Position numbers and translations under genes: made by a program. The notes under the pieces were generated by a model. That model worked only from the letters and a program-made list of their open reading frames with translations, was not told the DNA's origin and did not search any database. From a virus, in the IMG/VR virus record IMGVR_UViG_3300047382_000480, positions 1-64,000 of that record: 64,000 nucleotides of DNA; one strand, given 5' to 3'. This document shows positions 2,244 to 45,804 of this stretch, piece by piece; position 1 is the first letter of the stretch; each line of letters opens with the position of its first letter.

Positions 2244-3005
2244 TTAAATTTCTTTGCTCAAACGTATAACATTATTGTAGTTCGAAGCTATTCTTAAAAT
2301 CGACATATCAACGCCAAGTTGACCTGCAGAATATATCAAGGCATTGGTGTCTTTTGGAAAACAGTGACCACCATAACCTCTTTCTTCTGTTATTTCCATA
2401 TGACTAGTGCCTATTCTTTCGTCTCGGCTTACTAAATCTTTCACTGTATCATAATTTATACCTGCAGATTTACACACATCGTAGATCTGATTGAAGAAGG
2501 CAACCTTTGCTGCAAGGAATGAGTTTACAGTGTATTTCATAATTATGAGTTCTTCAGGGTCTCTAATTATCATTTCACAACCCTGCTTCCAAAACAATGT
2601 CGCCCAAAAAAGGTCGTCACCCCCACCAAAGTACATTGAAGTTCTATTGTTGAAATCTTCGAGTGCGTGTTCAGCTCGAAGGAACTCTGGACTAAATGTG
2701 ATGTTGTGGTCTGGGTAAACTTCTTTGATATATCTCCAGCCTTCCAAAGATATTGTACTTTTGATGAGAACTGGGATATCAGTGGGGCATTCATCAAGGA
2801 CATCAAAGACATTTGTCATATCACAAATACCAACATCAACATCAGACATTGGAGTGGCTACTGCAATGATAACCGCTTCTGGATCTCCAATAGTATTGTC
2901 GTTGAACGCTGGGTCTACGACTGTTATTTCGTTGCCCTTATTGACTGAAAGAGCCATTTCGTGCGCTCTCCCGACAAACCCATACCCGAAAACTGTTATC
3001 TTCAT
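2244..3005 (-). CDS. UDP-glucose/GDP-mannose 6-dehydrogenase, short form
   Basis: An NAD-dependent nucleotide-sugar dehydrogenase that would oxidise UDP-glucose to UDP-glucuronate in two steps. The Rossmann motif GYGFVG is at residues 7-12, SPEFL with the catalytic-site Glu near 107, the Lys/Asn pair in VNSFLAAK near 160-167, and the catalytic Cys in GGHCFPKD at 215. At 253 residues it is far shorter than the usual 380-450 and lacks the C-terminal UDP-binding domain. It may therefore work as a trimmed enzyme or with a partner. Its ATG overlaps the dCMP deaminase stop (ATGA), so translation is coupled. Confidence 0.85.
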   Translation of the reverse strand: MKITVFGYGFVGRAHEMALSVNKGNEITVVDPAFNDNTIGDPEAVIIAVATPMSDVDVGICDMTNVFDVLDECPTDIPVLIKSTISLEGWRYIKEVYPDHNITFSPEFLRAEHALEDFNNRTSMYFGGGDDLFWATLFWKQGCEMIIRDPEELIIMKYTVNSFLAAKVAFFNQIYDVCKSAGINYDTVKDLVSRDERIGTSHMEITEERGYGGHCFPKDTNALIYSAGQLGVDMSILRIASNYNNVIRLSKEI

Positions 3006-3475
3006 TCGTATTTCTCCACAACTATCCCATCACATTTATCAAGAAACTTGACACCATCATCATTTCTTAGATGAGGTTTCTCCCAAACAACACGTTTTAT
3101 CCCAGATTGATATATCAATTTAGCACATTCAATACAAGGTGCTGTTGTTGTATAAATCGTAGCACCCTCGCAATTATCAGAAGATTTAGCAACTTTAGCA
3201 ATTGCATTTGATTCAGCGTGAAGCACTTCTGGTTTTGTCTCTAGGAATTGAACGTCGCCATTTGGCCATTTGATTTCATTTTCACACACATTGTCCCAAC
3301 CAGAGGGCATACCATTATAACCAATGGAGATAATGCGGTTATCTTTTACGATAACGGCACCAACCTGTAATCTTTTTGCGGTAGAAAGTTTAGAGTAAAC
3401 TCGGGCAACTTTCATATGCGCCCTGTCCCATTTATTGGGTAGAATACCCCAAGTTCTTGTGTATGTATCAGTCAT
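3002..3475 (-). CDS. dCMP deaminase
   Basis: Zinc-dependent deoxycytidylate deaminase (157 residues) that makes dUMP for thymidylate synthesis, fitting the ThyX gene at 16834. The family's N-terminal VGAVIV strand, GYNGMPSG loop, HAE zinc/proton-shuttle motif and PCIEC zinc motif are all present. The start MTDTYTR at 3475 is preferred over a non-ATG extension, because it sits two bases from the stop of the upstream SGNH gene. In T4 the homologue is cd. Confidence 0.9.
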   Translation of the reverse strand: MTDTYTRTWGILPNKWDRAHMKVARVYSKLSTAKRLQVGAVIVKDNRIISIGYNGMPSGWDNVCENEIKWPNGDVQFLETKPEVLHAESNAIAKVAKSSDNCEGATIYTTTAPCIECAKLIYQSGIKRVVWEKPHLRNDDGVKFLDKCDGIVVEKYE

Positions 3476-3477
3476 TC

Positions 3478-4260
3478 TTAGACATCCCACTCATATCCAG
3501 CTTTCCTCAATAGGTTCATCGCAATGTATATGTGCCTGTTTGAACCATAATATTTTAAATCTCTAGAGAGATCGTGTTCTTGAAATATAGAAAAATAGTC
3601 GTCGCCACAGCAATCATCTTGGATTAAAGGAGTATCAAATTGATCACATAAATGTTGCATGGCTCGCAAAACCTTTTCTTTGTGTAGTATCCACTCATCT
3701 TCTGTTGTTGCTAATGGATACCCTGCATTGAGGATACCAGAATGTATGTGGTGTTCATAACCCTCGAATGGAGTGCACATAAACACATGAGATGGTTTTA
3801 TCTTGGGCAACCAGTACATTAAAACTCTAAATGCAGAGTCTAGAGAACCATTTGGTATGCCTAGATTATATGATCTCACCTTTAAAGTATGCCCGATACG
3901 AGTAGACCAAAGTTTGCCCTCTGGCATGCCAATCCCAAATGTATTTGAATCACCGAGACAGATAATACTACGTTTCTTTGGTTCTGTGGGCATTTCTTCA
4001 CCCCTGAACCCATGAGAATTAATTCTATAAGAAAGGTTGACCCAATCGCCCTGCTTAGGATCCATGGTATTGTAGTCATATTTGTAACCGACTACATCTT
4101 CTGCTCCCTCAGGTTCTTGAAAAATCCATCCATTTCTGAGTAACTCGTCGTAGTTATGTGACCAATTCAGCGCATACTGTTCTTCGCTGTCGTCCATATA
4201 AAAAGGCAGTTCTTCTGGAGTATGGTCTTTTCCGTTTGCTTTTCCCCAACTTTCTTTCAT
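3478..4260 (-). CDS. SGNH/GDSL-type hydrolase-like protein (copy 1)
   Basis: A 260-residue protein with the block-I motif IICLGDSNTFGIG (about residues 99-111), in which GDS is the usual SGNH nucleophile context. It is preceded by YRINSHGFRG. Members of this fold cleave acyl, acetyl or other ester groups. A C-terminal Asp/His dyad is less clear than in copy 2. It is a clear paralogue of the gene at 6053-6775, sharing the N-S-H-G-F-R stretch, the GDS region and the segment YWLPKIKPSHVF / YWVPILKPENVY. Substrate is unknown; a capsular or envelope polysaccharide ester is plausible. Confidence 0.7.
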   Translation of the reverse strand: MKESWGKANGKDHTPEELPFYMDDSEEQYALNWSHNYDELLRNGWIFQEPEGAEDVVGYKYDYNTMDPKQGDWVNLSYRINSHGFRGEEMPTEPKKRSIICLGDSNTFGIGMPEGKLWSTRIGHTLKVRSYNLGIPNGSLDSAFRVLMYWLPKIKPSHVFMCTPFEGYEHHIHSGILNAGYPLATTEDEWILHKEKVLRAMQHLCDQFDTPLIQDDCCGDDYFSIFQEHDLSRDLKYYGSNRHIYIAMNLLRKAGYEWDV

Positions 4261-42275: not shown

Positions 42276-42304
42276 ATAATAAATCAATCATACATAAAAG
42301 TCAA
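42276..42304 (-). promoter_or_regulatory. Early-type sigma70 promoter for the 45-44-62 operon
   Basis: TTGACT (42304-42299), 17 bp, TATTAT (42281-42276), with GAGGAA before the gene 45 ATG. Confidence 0.8.
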
Positions 42305-42612
42305 GCACTTTCTTCAAAATACTCAATATTAATTTCAAATCCATCTTTAGCCTTGTCGGTGAAATCGATATCCATTGATTTCAACTCGTCAAACAGATTT
42401 TGATCTTCAGACCTTCCAATAACAGTTAGCGTTAATCCATCAACACTAAATTGATATTCTAATTTTACTTTACCGCTGTCAACATGACGACGAAAAATAC
42501 TCCTTGCGAGTTCGGCTTGCGGTCCACCCCAAGTATCAGCCCCAGAAAGAAAAATTTGTGAGAGATCTTTTCGTGTAACAGATATTTTCACACAGTAATT
42601 TGTTGAAGACAT
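42301..42612 (-). CDS. Hypothetical protein, 103 aa
   Basis: Soluble mixed alpha/beta protein (MSSTNYCVKISVTRKDL...; strand VKLEYQFSVDGLTLTVIG), acidic at the end (IEYFEESA). Starts inside the GNAT-like gene (overlap 25 bases). Not recognised. Confidence 0.55.
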   Translation of the reverse strand: MSSTNYCVKISVTRKDLSQIFLSGADTWGGPQAELARSIFRRHVDSGKVKLEYQFSVDGLTLTVIGRSEDQNLFDELKSMDIDFTDKAKDGFEINIEYFEESA

Positions 42613-43181
42613 TGCTTTACCTCATTTTCATAATCGCTAAAATCGATATACATCGCAGTTTGTTCTGTAAATTTATAATTAACCTTTGTATCAAAGGTCT
42701 TAATTTTAGGAACAAAAGACAAATATTTATTTTTTCTGACATTCATATATGCAATTGTAGCTTTTGCTCTCCAAAGATTATGATCGTTTAAGAAGAACAC
42801 TGCAGCCCGATAATTATCTTTTATTGCACGGATAAATGTGTGCTGAATTAATTTTCTCATCAACTGGATTCTTTCTTTCATTCCGAGATCGGTTGAAATA
42901 TATAACCGAACTGGGAAAACTGCTATTGAGTCATCTTGCTCAAAAGGATAACACCCAACACCGCAAACATATTTACCATCTTTTTCATAAACAAAATACC
43001 CACCATTTTCACAATCATATATCTTCTGAATAAAGATTTGATTGAGAACAGTTTCTGGGCGATTTTTCCAATCTAACACCTGCACATTTTCTGCAGTTAG
43101 ATCATCGCTAAACTCAGCAATTTTACACATATCAAACAATTTCTTGTCTTTTTCACAACTGCTATCTATTCTTACGAACAT
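42588..43181 (-). CDS. GNAT-like acyltransferase candidate
   Basis: A 197-residue protein whose middle (YFVYEKDGKYVCGVGCYPF, then VFPVRLYISTDLGMKERIQLM and AAVFFLNDHN) follows the strand order of GNAT acetyltransferases: antiparallel strands, a helix after strand 4, and an N-terminated strand 5. The acetyl-CoA loop Q/RxxGxG is not canonical. It is translationally coupled to the desaturase upstream (overlap 20 bases), so an acyl-transfer role in the lipid module is conceivable but unproven. Confidence 0.4.
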   Translation of the reverse strand: MFVRIDSSCEKDKKLFDMCKIAEFSDDLTAENVQVLDWKNRPETVLNQIFIQKIYDCENGGYFVYEKDGKYVCGVGCYPFEQDDSIAVFPVRLYISTDLGMKERIQLMRKLIQHTFIRAIKDNYRAAVFFLNDHNLWRAKATIAYMNVRKNKYLSFVPKIKTFDTKVNYKFTEQTAMYIDFSDYENEVKQCLQQITV

Positions 43182-43935
43182 CCAAAAACCTTATGAAAAA
43201 CTGATATGGCGAATCAAAAAACCCAAACTGTGCCTTTCCTGGATTATCGTGATGATTCTTATGGTACAACTCACCAACATAAAATATACTTAACCATGGA
43301 ACATTAATCGGTTCTTTTTTTAGATGACCAAAGATGTTTAATGTAACTTGGAAGATGTATGCGACCGCAATAAACGAAGCCCAGAACCCTCCTAATCCAA
43401 CTGCAAACATAAATGCAGCAGAGAGTATACCAAACTCCCAATACCACCTTGCTTGTAGTAGATACAGTTTGTCTCTTATCATCCACCTTGGAACCATATT
43501 AACAGGTGGAACATTATTAAAGACCATAAAATTATCAAAGATACTATGAACATTTCCATGAGGATCTTTTTCTGTATCAGTATGCTTGTGGTGTTGCCTG
43601 TGTATTCCTGCCCATCCCATACAGGGAGTGAGTAAGAAAAATGTTATCAATACCACAGTCAAAACCTCAACAAATCTATTTGGTTGCCAAGACTTATGTG
43701 AGCAGTAACGATGTTGAAACCCAGAGACAAAATATCCCACAAGAAGATTACTTAGTACTGCCCAAACAAAAACTTCTAAGAGTGATAATTTTGTTATCCA
43801 AAATACTGATGCGACAAGACAAGCTATGTACACAGCAGTGTGAACATATCCTGTTTTATTTCCTATAAACTTAGTCAAAGGAGCATTCAAACTTGCTTTC
43901 AAAAAAGCAAGGATAGTTATAATTGTAAGCATCAT
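43162..43935 (-). CDS. Fatty-acid desaturase (delta-9 type)
   Basis: An integral-membrane di-iron desaturase of 257 residues. The three His boxes are HRYCSH (75-80), HRQHHKH (112-118) and HKNHH (about 226-230), as in acyl-CoA/acyl-lipid delta-9 desaturases. Four or more hydrophobic segments surround them. It would introduce a double bond in host membrane acyl chains, raising fluidity. It overlaps the FabF stop (ATGA), so the two enzymes are made together. Confidence 0.9.
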   Translation of the reverse strand: MMLTIITILAFLKASLNAPLTKFIGNKTGYVHTAVYIACLVASVFWITKLSLLEVFVWAVLSNLLVGYFVSGFQHRYCSHKSWQPNRFVEVLTVVLITFFLLTPCMGWAGIHRQHHKHTDTEKDPHGNVHSIFDNFMVFNNVPPVNMVPRWMIRDKLYLLQARWYWEFGILSAAFMFAVGLGGFWASFIAVAYIFQVTLNIFGHLKKEPINVPWLSIFYVGELYHKNHHDNPGKAQFGFFDSPYQFFIRFLDVRKNR

Positions 43936-45092
43936 ACTCGTAAAACTATTGAAGAAGACCTTCCACCAAATGCAAACGAATTCTTCAATGCCAGTTTCCC
44001 ATTAACATTCTTTTTATATTTATAGACATATTCTAGATCGCAGTCTTGAATATTGAAATTTGCAGGTATAACAGAATCACGAAGGCACATCAAAGTATAA
44101 ATTGTTTCATTAATTCCACTAGAAGCAAGGGAATGACCAACCTTTGATTTAAAGCTGACAATAGGTTTGTTTGGAACTACCTTTTGAATTGCATCATATT
44201 CAAGGTCATCACCAATCGGTGTTGATGTTCCGTGCGCATTAATGAATGCGATATCGCCTTGGAGGTCTTTGGTAACATCTTTCATAGAAGCAATTGCGCC
44301 AGTCATATTTAGATCTGGAGATGTAGCACTACCTAATGCGCCATCTGTATGGTGCGCGATTGATTCAATGTACCCAAGTATATTAGCACCTCTCGCCAAA
44401 GCAGTAGACTCTTTTTCTAGCAACAGACAACCAGCACCCTCTCCCATGATGAACCCATCTCGGTTTTTATCAAAGGGGCAGGACTTTGTTCCCAGTGCAC
44501 CTAACTGAGAAAACAGATACATCTCATCTTCTACAGCAGGAGTATCTGTACCACCAACAACTACAAAGTCGTGTGTTTTAAGTAAGTGTGTCGCGTAGTC
44601 TAGAGAATATAGACCAGTTGCGCATGCGCCATCCATACTAACACAAGCACCACGAAAGTCAAATGCCTTTCCGATCAACCCAGCTGTAAAATCTTTTAAG
44701 TATTGAACGGAAGTTCTTGGGGATAGTCTTCTACCTTTATGCAATCTAGTAGAAAATGTTGTAGCCTGAGTTTCGGGTTTAGTCGCAAGGGAACTGAAAA
44801 CAACAGCGACATTAGTGCTGTCAATATCTTTAGTAGCTTCCTTGACTACGTGCAAGGCATTTTTAGATGCAACTGAAATTGAAGTATGTACTGGTTTTCG
44901 CACACCTTCAGGAATAGCATAATCAACTTCCATTGCCTTGAAACACTTTAAACCTTTGATAACATCAATATCTGTTTCAAACTCAATAGGCTCAATGTAT
45001 TCATCGCTCATCAGTCTAGCGTAACATTCTCCTGGAGAAGTCCCAAGAGTATCAACCATACCTAATCCTGTTATCACAATTTTATCGGTCAT
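43932..45092 (-). CDS. Beta-ketoacyl-ACP synthase (FabF/KAS II type)
   Basis: A condensing enzyme of fatty-acid synthesis, 386 residues. Catalytic Cys157 is in SMDGACATG, the first His in NAHGTSTPIGD and the second in KSKVGHSLASSG, with GEGAGCLLLE as the dimer-core strand. All three catalytic residues are present, so it should elongate acyl-ACP. FabF orthologues control the share of cis-vaccenate at low temperature. Standing directly before a desaturase, it suggests phage remodelling of membrane lipids. Confidence 0.92.
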   Translation of the reverse strand: MTDKIVITGLGMVDTLGTSPGECYARLMSDEYIEPIEFETDIDVIKGLKCFKAMEVDYAIPEGVRKPVHTSISVASKNALHVVKEATKDIDSTNVAVVFSSLATKPETQATTFSTRLHKGRRLSPRTSVQYLKDFTAGLIGKAFDFRGACVSMDGACATGLYSLDYATHLLKTHDFVVVGGTDTPAVEDEMYLFSQLGALGTKSCPFDKNRDGFIMGEGAGCLLLEKESTALARGANILGYIESIAHHTDGALGSATSPDLNMTGAIASMKDVTKDLQGDIAFINAHGTSTPIGDDLEYDAIQKVVPNKPIVSFKSKVGHSLASSGINETIYTLMCLRDSVIPANFNIQDCDLEYVYKYKKNVNGKLALKNSFAFGGRSSSIVLRV

Positions 45093-45104: not shown

Positions 45105-45533
45105 CTATAGATGTTCAAAAAACTCATACATATTTAGGAAGTCTCCGTCAAGCGAAGGAATATTTTCTATATCAATGTTTGGTCTGTTTTTAAATTCAGC
45201 CTCAACATCATCTTTTTTGTAAAACGATGCTATACTATTATGTGAATTGTAATCGTCAGCATTCACATAAAAAAGATAATCTGCAGTAGTGGCGTGGAAA
45301 TAACGAAGAACAGACATTTTTCCTTTCACGGGATCATCGTCGCACTTCCCCTTCGCTACCGCATATCCATTATCAAAAGAAATTTGGGTCGCCAGAGAAG
45401 AAGACTCAGTGTCTGTTATATTAATAACGACAATCCGCTCATGAGGAGAGGAGTTTGAGTTCACGGATTTCAAACACCGATCTAACTTCTCTGGCTTCCC
45501 ATTGGTCAAAACCGCAACCAAAACTTTAGACAT
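45105..45533 (-). CDS. Short GT-A glycosyltransferase-like protein
   Basis: Starts MSKVLVAVLTNGKPEKLDRCLKS as a pattern typical of family-2 glycosyltransferases, with FYVNADDYNS (about 98-107) at the place of the DxD metal motif. At 142 residues it covers only the nucleotide-sugar half. It may be a remnant, or need a partner for the acceptor. The ATG at 45533 overlaps the DUF3310 gene by 8 bases. Confidence 0.5.
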   Translation of the reverse strand: MSKVLVAVLTNGKPEKLDRCLKSVNSNSSPHERIVVINITDTESSSLATQISFDNGYAVAKGKCDDDPVKGKMSVLRYFHATTADYLFYVNADDYNSHNSIASFYKKDDVEAEFKNRPNIDIENIPSLDGDFLNMYEFFEHL

Positions 45534-45804
45534 CTTCGTGTTCTCTATCGTGAACGTGAAGAGCAATCAAACCATAATGCAAAACTTTCAACAAGTCTTT
45601 GCGATTATATCCATCTTTGTTACCATAGCGTTGAGCATATTTCATAATATTACCGATACAAAACCCTTCGCCATGACCACCATCAATAATAAACTCGGTG
45701 GCTTGAAATTTATTTCTTGAGTAATGTTCGCCATATGTAGCATCAACATACTTTTGAAGGTCAGCCATCAACTGACCTTCGTTATATTTGTAATCAACCG
45801 CCAT
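45526..45804 (-). CDS. DUF3310-type protein
   Basis: A 92-residue protein with the DUF3310 pattern: EFIIDGGHGEGFCIGNIMKY (about residues 37-56), AQRYGNKDGYNRKDLLKV and HYGLIALH. DUF3310 proteins are frequent in phage genomes beside nucleotide or DNA genes and lack a defined role. GGGGA lies before the ATG. Confidence 0.7.
   Translation of the reverse strand: MAVDYKYNEGQLMADLQKYVDATYGEHYSRNKFQATEFIIDGGHGEGFCIGNIMKYAQRYGNKDGYNRKDLLKVLHYGLIALHVHDREHEDV

Follow-up and report, generated by a model that had tools for sequence, protein, structure and literature searches.

A candidate acyl-chain module in a marine T4-like phage: a ketoacyl-ACP synthase coupled to a fatty-acid desaturase

A large marine T4-like phage carries a beta-ketoacyl-ACP synthase (KAS) gene that overlaps a membrane fatty-acid desaturase gene, which in turn overlaps the gene of a probable GNAT-fold transferase. 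Intact active sites, purifying selection, adjacency in many phages, co-variation of the two enzymes and their joint divergence or exchange in one lineage give good support to a two-enzyme acyl module, as a first-pass annotation of this DNA had proposed. At odds slightly better than even (about 0.55), the module would use the host's acyl carrier protein (ACP) and make longer and/or unsaturated chains, probably for membrane lipid. The usual account of a single viral desaturase is that it helps to keep the membrane fluid. Here a synthase and a desaturase stay next to each other, diverge in step and were seemingly exchanged together, which suggests that phages carry two matched steps of one acyl pathway, with a product that is open to lipidomics after co-expression.

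Gene order at the locus

The window, meaning the whole stretch of 64,000 nucleotides that was analysed, is positions 1 to 64,000 of the viral record IMGVR_UViG_3300047382_000480 (138,660 bases). The DNA polymerase of this record is 49% identical to that of marine Synechococcus phages (tblastn), and a search for the photosystem gene Photo_RC, a cyanophage marker, gave no match. The module spans window positions 45092 to 42588 on the minus strand as three overlapping ORFs, placed and flanked by replisome genes as the first-pass annotation had described:

43932..45092, minus strand: beta-ketoacyl-ACP synthase (KAS I/II superfamily, phage-specific clade), 386 aa, PF00109 + PF02801
43162..43935, minus strand: membrane fatty-acid desaturase (PF00487 at 5e-9, predicted SCD1-like fold), 257 aa
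42588..43181, minus strand: probable GNAT-fold transferase, 197 aa, 20-base overlap with the desaturase, Acetyltransf_1 in homologues
42301..42612, minus strand: 103-aa ORF that overlaps the GNAT gene at its end, with weak conservation (~30-40% identical in L002 and L045)
44017..44024, minus strand: TATAAATA, a motif resembling the T4 late promoter, within the KAS gene and 82 bases ahead of the desaturase start

In minus-strand order, a MoxR-type ATPase gene, a DUF3310 gene and a 153-aa ORF precede the KAS. After the desaturase, the 197-aa ORF and the 103-aa ORF comes a T4-type replisome block made up of the sliding clamp gp45, peroxiredoxin, the clamp-loader genes gp44 and gp62, RegA, HSP20, a 128-aa ORF and the DNA polymerase gp43, so that the module is upstream of the genes for the clamp and its loader. 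Profile searches bear out the names of the MoxR-type ATPase, DUF3310, peroxiredoxin and gp62, and tblastn that of gp43; several of the remaining neighbours were named by reading their translations by eye. No ACP gene was detected in the window's phage record. A 268-aa glycosyltransferase-like protein of L002 matches the 153-aa ORF (window 45105-45566), which seems shortened in the window.

The two enzymes and the third ORF

The KAS matches PF00109 at 1e-24 (87.9 bits) and PF02801 at 4e-20 (72.5 bits; gathering score 20.8), and its best PDB match has an E-value of 2e-40 (phmmer). Its residues C157, H287, K315 and H320 are invariant among 14 phage homologues and align to C163, H303, K335 and H340 of E. 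coli FabF, whose gating Phe (F400) is likewise conserved in the phage proteins. The phage protein thus has the domains, the catalytic Cys-His-His-Lys and the gating Phe of FabF and FabB, but it falls in its own tree clade, and in the window's KAS clade Ile108 of FabF is replaced by Ala. Against the FabF equivalog NCBIfam TIGR03150 it scores 214.9 bits, far under the curated cut-off of 493.75. With 215 bits against 494, the name "FabF-type" used in the first-pass annotation is fair for its domains and residues, whereas "FabF" is not. FabF (KAS II) activity is the elongation of C16:1 to C18:1. The effect of FabF on cis-vaccenate, however, is E. coli physiology and need not apply in the host of the window phage.

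The KAS stop and the desaturase start share ATGA, an overlap that is real, since the sequence reads gtATGATG. The desaturase has the three His boxes HRYCSH, HRQHH and HKNHH, and its metal-site residues H75, H80, H112, H115, H116, H204, H225, H228, H229 and N200 are invariant across 15 diverse phage homologues. Its predicted model (pLDDT 87) matches the stearoyl-CoA desaturase 4zyo (Foldseek E 4e-6, TM 0.69), which points to an SCD1-like fold. The "delta-9" label of the first-pass annotation goes further than this, since a sequence does not reveal at which carbon the double bond is placed. The catalytic Cys and two His of the KAS, the ATGA coupling and the three intact His boxes had all been read correctly the first time. 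Loss of catalytic residues in relatives, which would have spoken against the module, was looked for, and the residues are kept.

The earlier description of an overlapping, GNAT-like third ORF stands as regards the overlap, and the protein is probably a GNAT transferase. The window's own 197-aa protein has no Pfam match, yet three of the four aligned members of its family match Acetyltransf_1 (best 3e-4), and all the top PDB matches of its low-confidence model (pLDDT 49) are GNAT-fold enzymes (Foldseek). The acyl-homoserine-lactone (autoinducer) synthase profile gave no match in a search reported up to E 10, in which HMMER filters remove most matches above about 0.1 and from which weak Acetyltransf_1/7 matches alone came back. 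The gene is kept in the window's lineage and in that of L274, where a homologue follows the desaturase, and is a lineage-specific partner of the KAS-desaturase pair. A second family of ~200 aa lies next to phage desaturases (L272 4604-5200, L382 6797-7420, L387 6808-7413 and L389 6818-7423). The GNAT-like ORFs beside the desaturases of these four contigs were considered as the same third gene and rejected, profile comparison giving E 0.02 at best.

Selection and pairing across phages

Among close pairs of phages, dN/dS lies at 0.07–0.19 over the module genes, as expected under purifying selection. The closest informative pair (L002-L043) gives 0.065 for the KAS, 0.11 for the desaturase and 0.16 for the 197-aa gene, and L003-L004 gives 0.15 for the KAS and 0.19 for the desaturase. 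The T4-like replisome context, the phage relatives and the low dN/dS together mark these as viral auxiliary metabolic genes.

On 25 IMG/VR contigs the KAS and desaturase genes lie no more than 3 kb apart, and on 20 they are direct neighbours; some of these contigs are near-identical to one another. The pair occurs in several contexts, some of whose genes were named by eye:

Context 1 (L002, L043, L045, L046): window type, beside gp45, with the GNAT gene
Context 2 (L003, L004, L047-L054): another T4-like lineage, beside DUF3310, without the GNAT gene
Context 3 (L005, L341): clusters with oxygenase-like, methyltransferase-like and sulfotransferase-like genes (named by eye)
Context 4 (L373, L382, L387, L389): close to a tail-fibre-like gene, KAS and desaturase separated by a 265-269-aa gene

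In a tree of 104 desaturases, 14 that are closely linked to a KAS fall in one 18-member clade (SH-aLRT 99), and of the many phage desaturase clades this one takes in most of the closely linked desaturases. The exceptions are L298, whose KAS is ~2 kb off on the opposite strand, L388, with 3.3 kb between the two genes, and the multi-desaturase cluster of the viral record G667. Over 14 pairs, the KAS and desaturase distances correlate with a Mantel r of 0.90 (permutation p 5e-5), and within the nine closest pairs at 0.86, part of this correlation being due to shared phage ancestry.

The pairing is not universal. In many phages no desaturase lies beside the KAS (L006, L007 and a freshwater clade), and four members of the 18-member desaturase clade lack a KAS on their records, which are fragments; neither gene therefore clearly depends on the other throughout these phages. 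On the linear record of the freshwater phage G001, the KAS is at 18.6 kb and the desaturase at 110 kb, ~90 kb apart. This unlinked desaturase (L186 1393-2663, at 110 kb) is directly followed by a 182-aa ORF that looks GNAT-like by eye. The first-pass annotation had also held that such a module is not a standard T4 feature. This is true of T4 itself, whereas the KAS family is widespread among aquatic T4-like phages, and for freshwater pelagimyophages both fabF and a stearoyl-CoA desaturase have already been noted (PMC7029224).

Joint divergence and origin of the pair

Judged by the sequences of their neighbouring genes, L274 and L275 belong to the window's own phage type. Their MoxR, DUF3310, gp45 and peroxiredoxin are 79%, 77%, 89% and 73% identical to those of the window, as is gp44 at 93% (L275), and their upstream ORF and GNAT are 48% and 50% identical, the GNAT of other members being 52-55% identical. 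The two enzymes tell a different story: KAS identity to the window is 42% and desaturase identity 31%, as against 70% and 67% in other members, and in the KAS tree L274 joins another phage branch (support 93). On inspection, the active-site motifs are still present. The simplest reading of these comparisons is that the KAS and desaturase were exchanged together while their neighbours were retained, although both enzymes may instead have diverged jointly and faster.

The 31 phage KAS form one clade (SH-aLRT 99) apart from bacterial FabF, and bacterial KAS are about 28-35% identical to that of the window. A search of ~650 genomes from two bacterial phyla recovered distant desaturases alone, the best at 62 bits, and no source of the module was found in the bacterial genomes searched. 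With bacterial homologues this distant and a separate phage KAS clade, the module is old in phages. One match inside a Flavobacteriales genome (L100, NYWQ01000054.1; 37% for the KAS) was considered as a host source and rejected: the 6.5-kb contig carries a phage baseplate-like protein (by eye), and it is therefore taken as a mis-binned phage contig. It also holds IscU-, IscA- and TusA-like genes along with its phage-clade KAS. KAS-like matches in an annotated phage collection were set aside, all being <35% identical, most lying in unannotated records and some being labelled host-type fab.

A late-promoter-like motif inside the KAS gene

The window holds 14 copies of the T4 late-promoter core TATAAATA where 3.9 would be expected; 13 of them are on the coding (minus) strand, and 11 of these 13 are 50 bases or less before an ORF start. 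The copy within the KAS gene recurs in seven of ten relatives examined, 89-99 bases before the desaturase start. It mostly coincides with a conserved Tyr-Lys-Tyr, whose codons produce it by chance ~41% of the time; in L005 a motif stands at about the same place in a different reading frame. This recurrence suggests that the desaturase and the GNAT may be separately expressed late, from a candidate promoter inside the KAS gene.

A proposed pathway and its alternatives

We infer a series of steps that includes the use of host ACP and reductase, the position of the double bond, the membrane-lipid destination, the late timing and the benefit. The KAS would condense malonyl-ACP with acyl chains carried on the host acyl carrier protein, and host reductase and dehydratase steps would complete the added elongation cycles. 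The membrane desaturase would then put double bonds into the resulting acyl-ACP, acyl-CoA or lipid. The acyl pool of the infected cell, most likely its membrane phospholipids, would shift to longer and/or unsaturated chains, and the putative internal promoter of the KAS gene would boost the desaturase and the GNAT in the late phase of infection. The benefit might be fluidity for growth in cold water, for entry or for lysis.

The main rival to this membrane-lipid reading, one that the first-pass annotation had not raised and that we regard as unlikely yet live, is an N-acylated product. The KAS and desaturase would build the chain and the GNAT would take it off acyl-ACP or acyl-CoA and attach it to an amine, such as an amino acid, an amino lipid, a signal molecule or a protein, and the membrane would not be the main target. 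It is consistent with the overlap of the GNAT gene with the desaturase gene, with purifying selection on the GNAT gene and with its retention in L274, where the KAS-desaturase pair is most divergent. It would also accommodate the oxygenase-like, methyltransferase-like or MaoC genes of related clusters, and G667, in which a KAS, an ACP, a phosphopantetheinyl transferase and seven desaturase ORFs accompany a distant GNAT of the same family. Most KAS-desaturase pairs, however, have no GNAT of the window type, ordinary acetyltransferases are common in phages, and both the low-confidence model and the match to Acetyltransf_1/7 rather than to autoinducer synthases tell against so specific a role. 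The GNAT and the neighbours in related clusters agree with a tailored acyl product no less than with bulk membrane lipid. On a broader and equally tentative proposal, aquatic T4-like phages would carry a family of acyl-metabolite clusters, small in the window operon and large in G667, that make and transfer a specific unsaturated product and do not adjust bulk membrane lipid.

The two enzymes could also act apart. The KAS would stand in for host FabF/FabB and sustain fatty-acid synthesis once the phage has shut down host expression, the desaturase would independently keep membranes fluid, and their proximity would reflect a shared slot for accessory genes. Such an arrangement agrees with the many aquatic T4-like phages whose KAS has no desaturase nearby, and with the wide separation in G001; the joint divergence in L274, the Mantel correlation and the single clade of KAS-linked desaturases point to a shared job and make it rather improbable. 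Phages often pick up host metabolic genes, so the idea that the genes came recently from a host and serve no selected function was considered as well. The distance to bacterial homologues (the KAS at most ~35% identical and in a clade apart, the desaturases matched distantly in the two phyla searched) and the low dN/dS led us to reject it, its probability being very small. If the membrane is the target of the acyl-chain module, these phages set both the chain length and the unsaturation of the infected cell; a chain handed to the GNAT would instead mean that they make an acyl product of their own. Both outcomes would sharpen the view of what "lipid" auxiliary genes do for marine phages.

Relation to known systems

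Roitman et al. are said to have described cyanophage lipid desaturases in 2018. Viral desaturases are by now an established class that includes sea-ice viral FAD genes (PMC7300359, citing Roitman et al., 2018). As far as the available text of that source goes, the cyanophage and sea-ice enzymes are likewise virus-encoded, of the membrane type with three His boxes and proposed to remodel host membranes, but no linked KAS is described there. Closer to the window, a single sentence lists fabF and a stearoyl-CoA desaturase among the unique genes of freshwater pelagimyophages (fonsimyophages; PMC7029224), which are also T4-like aquatic phages with both enzymes. The L008-L041 clade of KAS may belong to these phages. 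The window pair is an overlapping operon, whereas in G001 the two genes lie far apart and the desaturase is in another clade. The desaturase of Pelagibacter phage Mosig (MT647606) is of the PF00487 type and comes from a marine T4-like phage in which oxygenase and N-acetyltransferase genes lie close by; it differs in being 27.6% identical to the window's, in belonging to another cluster and in having no KAS annotated beside it. In Rhodobacteraceae prophages, fabF is also found on phage-like elements, as fabG-acpP-fabF (PMC8224337), but in the order of a host-type fab operon and without a desaturase, unlike the window. In the literature searched, which took in few subscription papers, no description of a linked KAS-desaturase operon or module was found.

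Other acyl clusters

A large related gene set is that of G667 (L395 5692-17006, IMGVR_UViG_3300027712_001262), a viral record of 112,863 bases with an acyl gene cluster within 12 kb. The cluster holds a KAS with its catalytic residues, seven desaturase ORFs, an ACP, a phosphopantetheinyl transferase and two ORFs that are weakly ferritin/rubrerythrin-like. The window's GNAT family has a distant member just upstream, at 3003-3539. The cluster resembles a polyene/polyyne-type pathway. We know of no phage with a gene set like this one; G667 itself may be a phage genome, as far as its neighbouring genes were checked. HSP20- and DnaK-like ORFs were also seen by eye in this record. On the phage contig G678 (L397 14558-17203), two desaturase ORFs lie close to an ACP gene, together with radical-SAM-like genes. 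In L347 (3998-7959, IMGVR_UViG_3300021375_001646), a KAS is followed by genes for a 269-aa oxygenase-like protein, a MaoC-type dehydratase, a cupin-like protein and a desaturase, a run that is possibly a larger acyl cluster.
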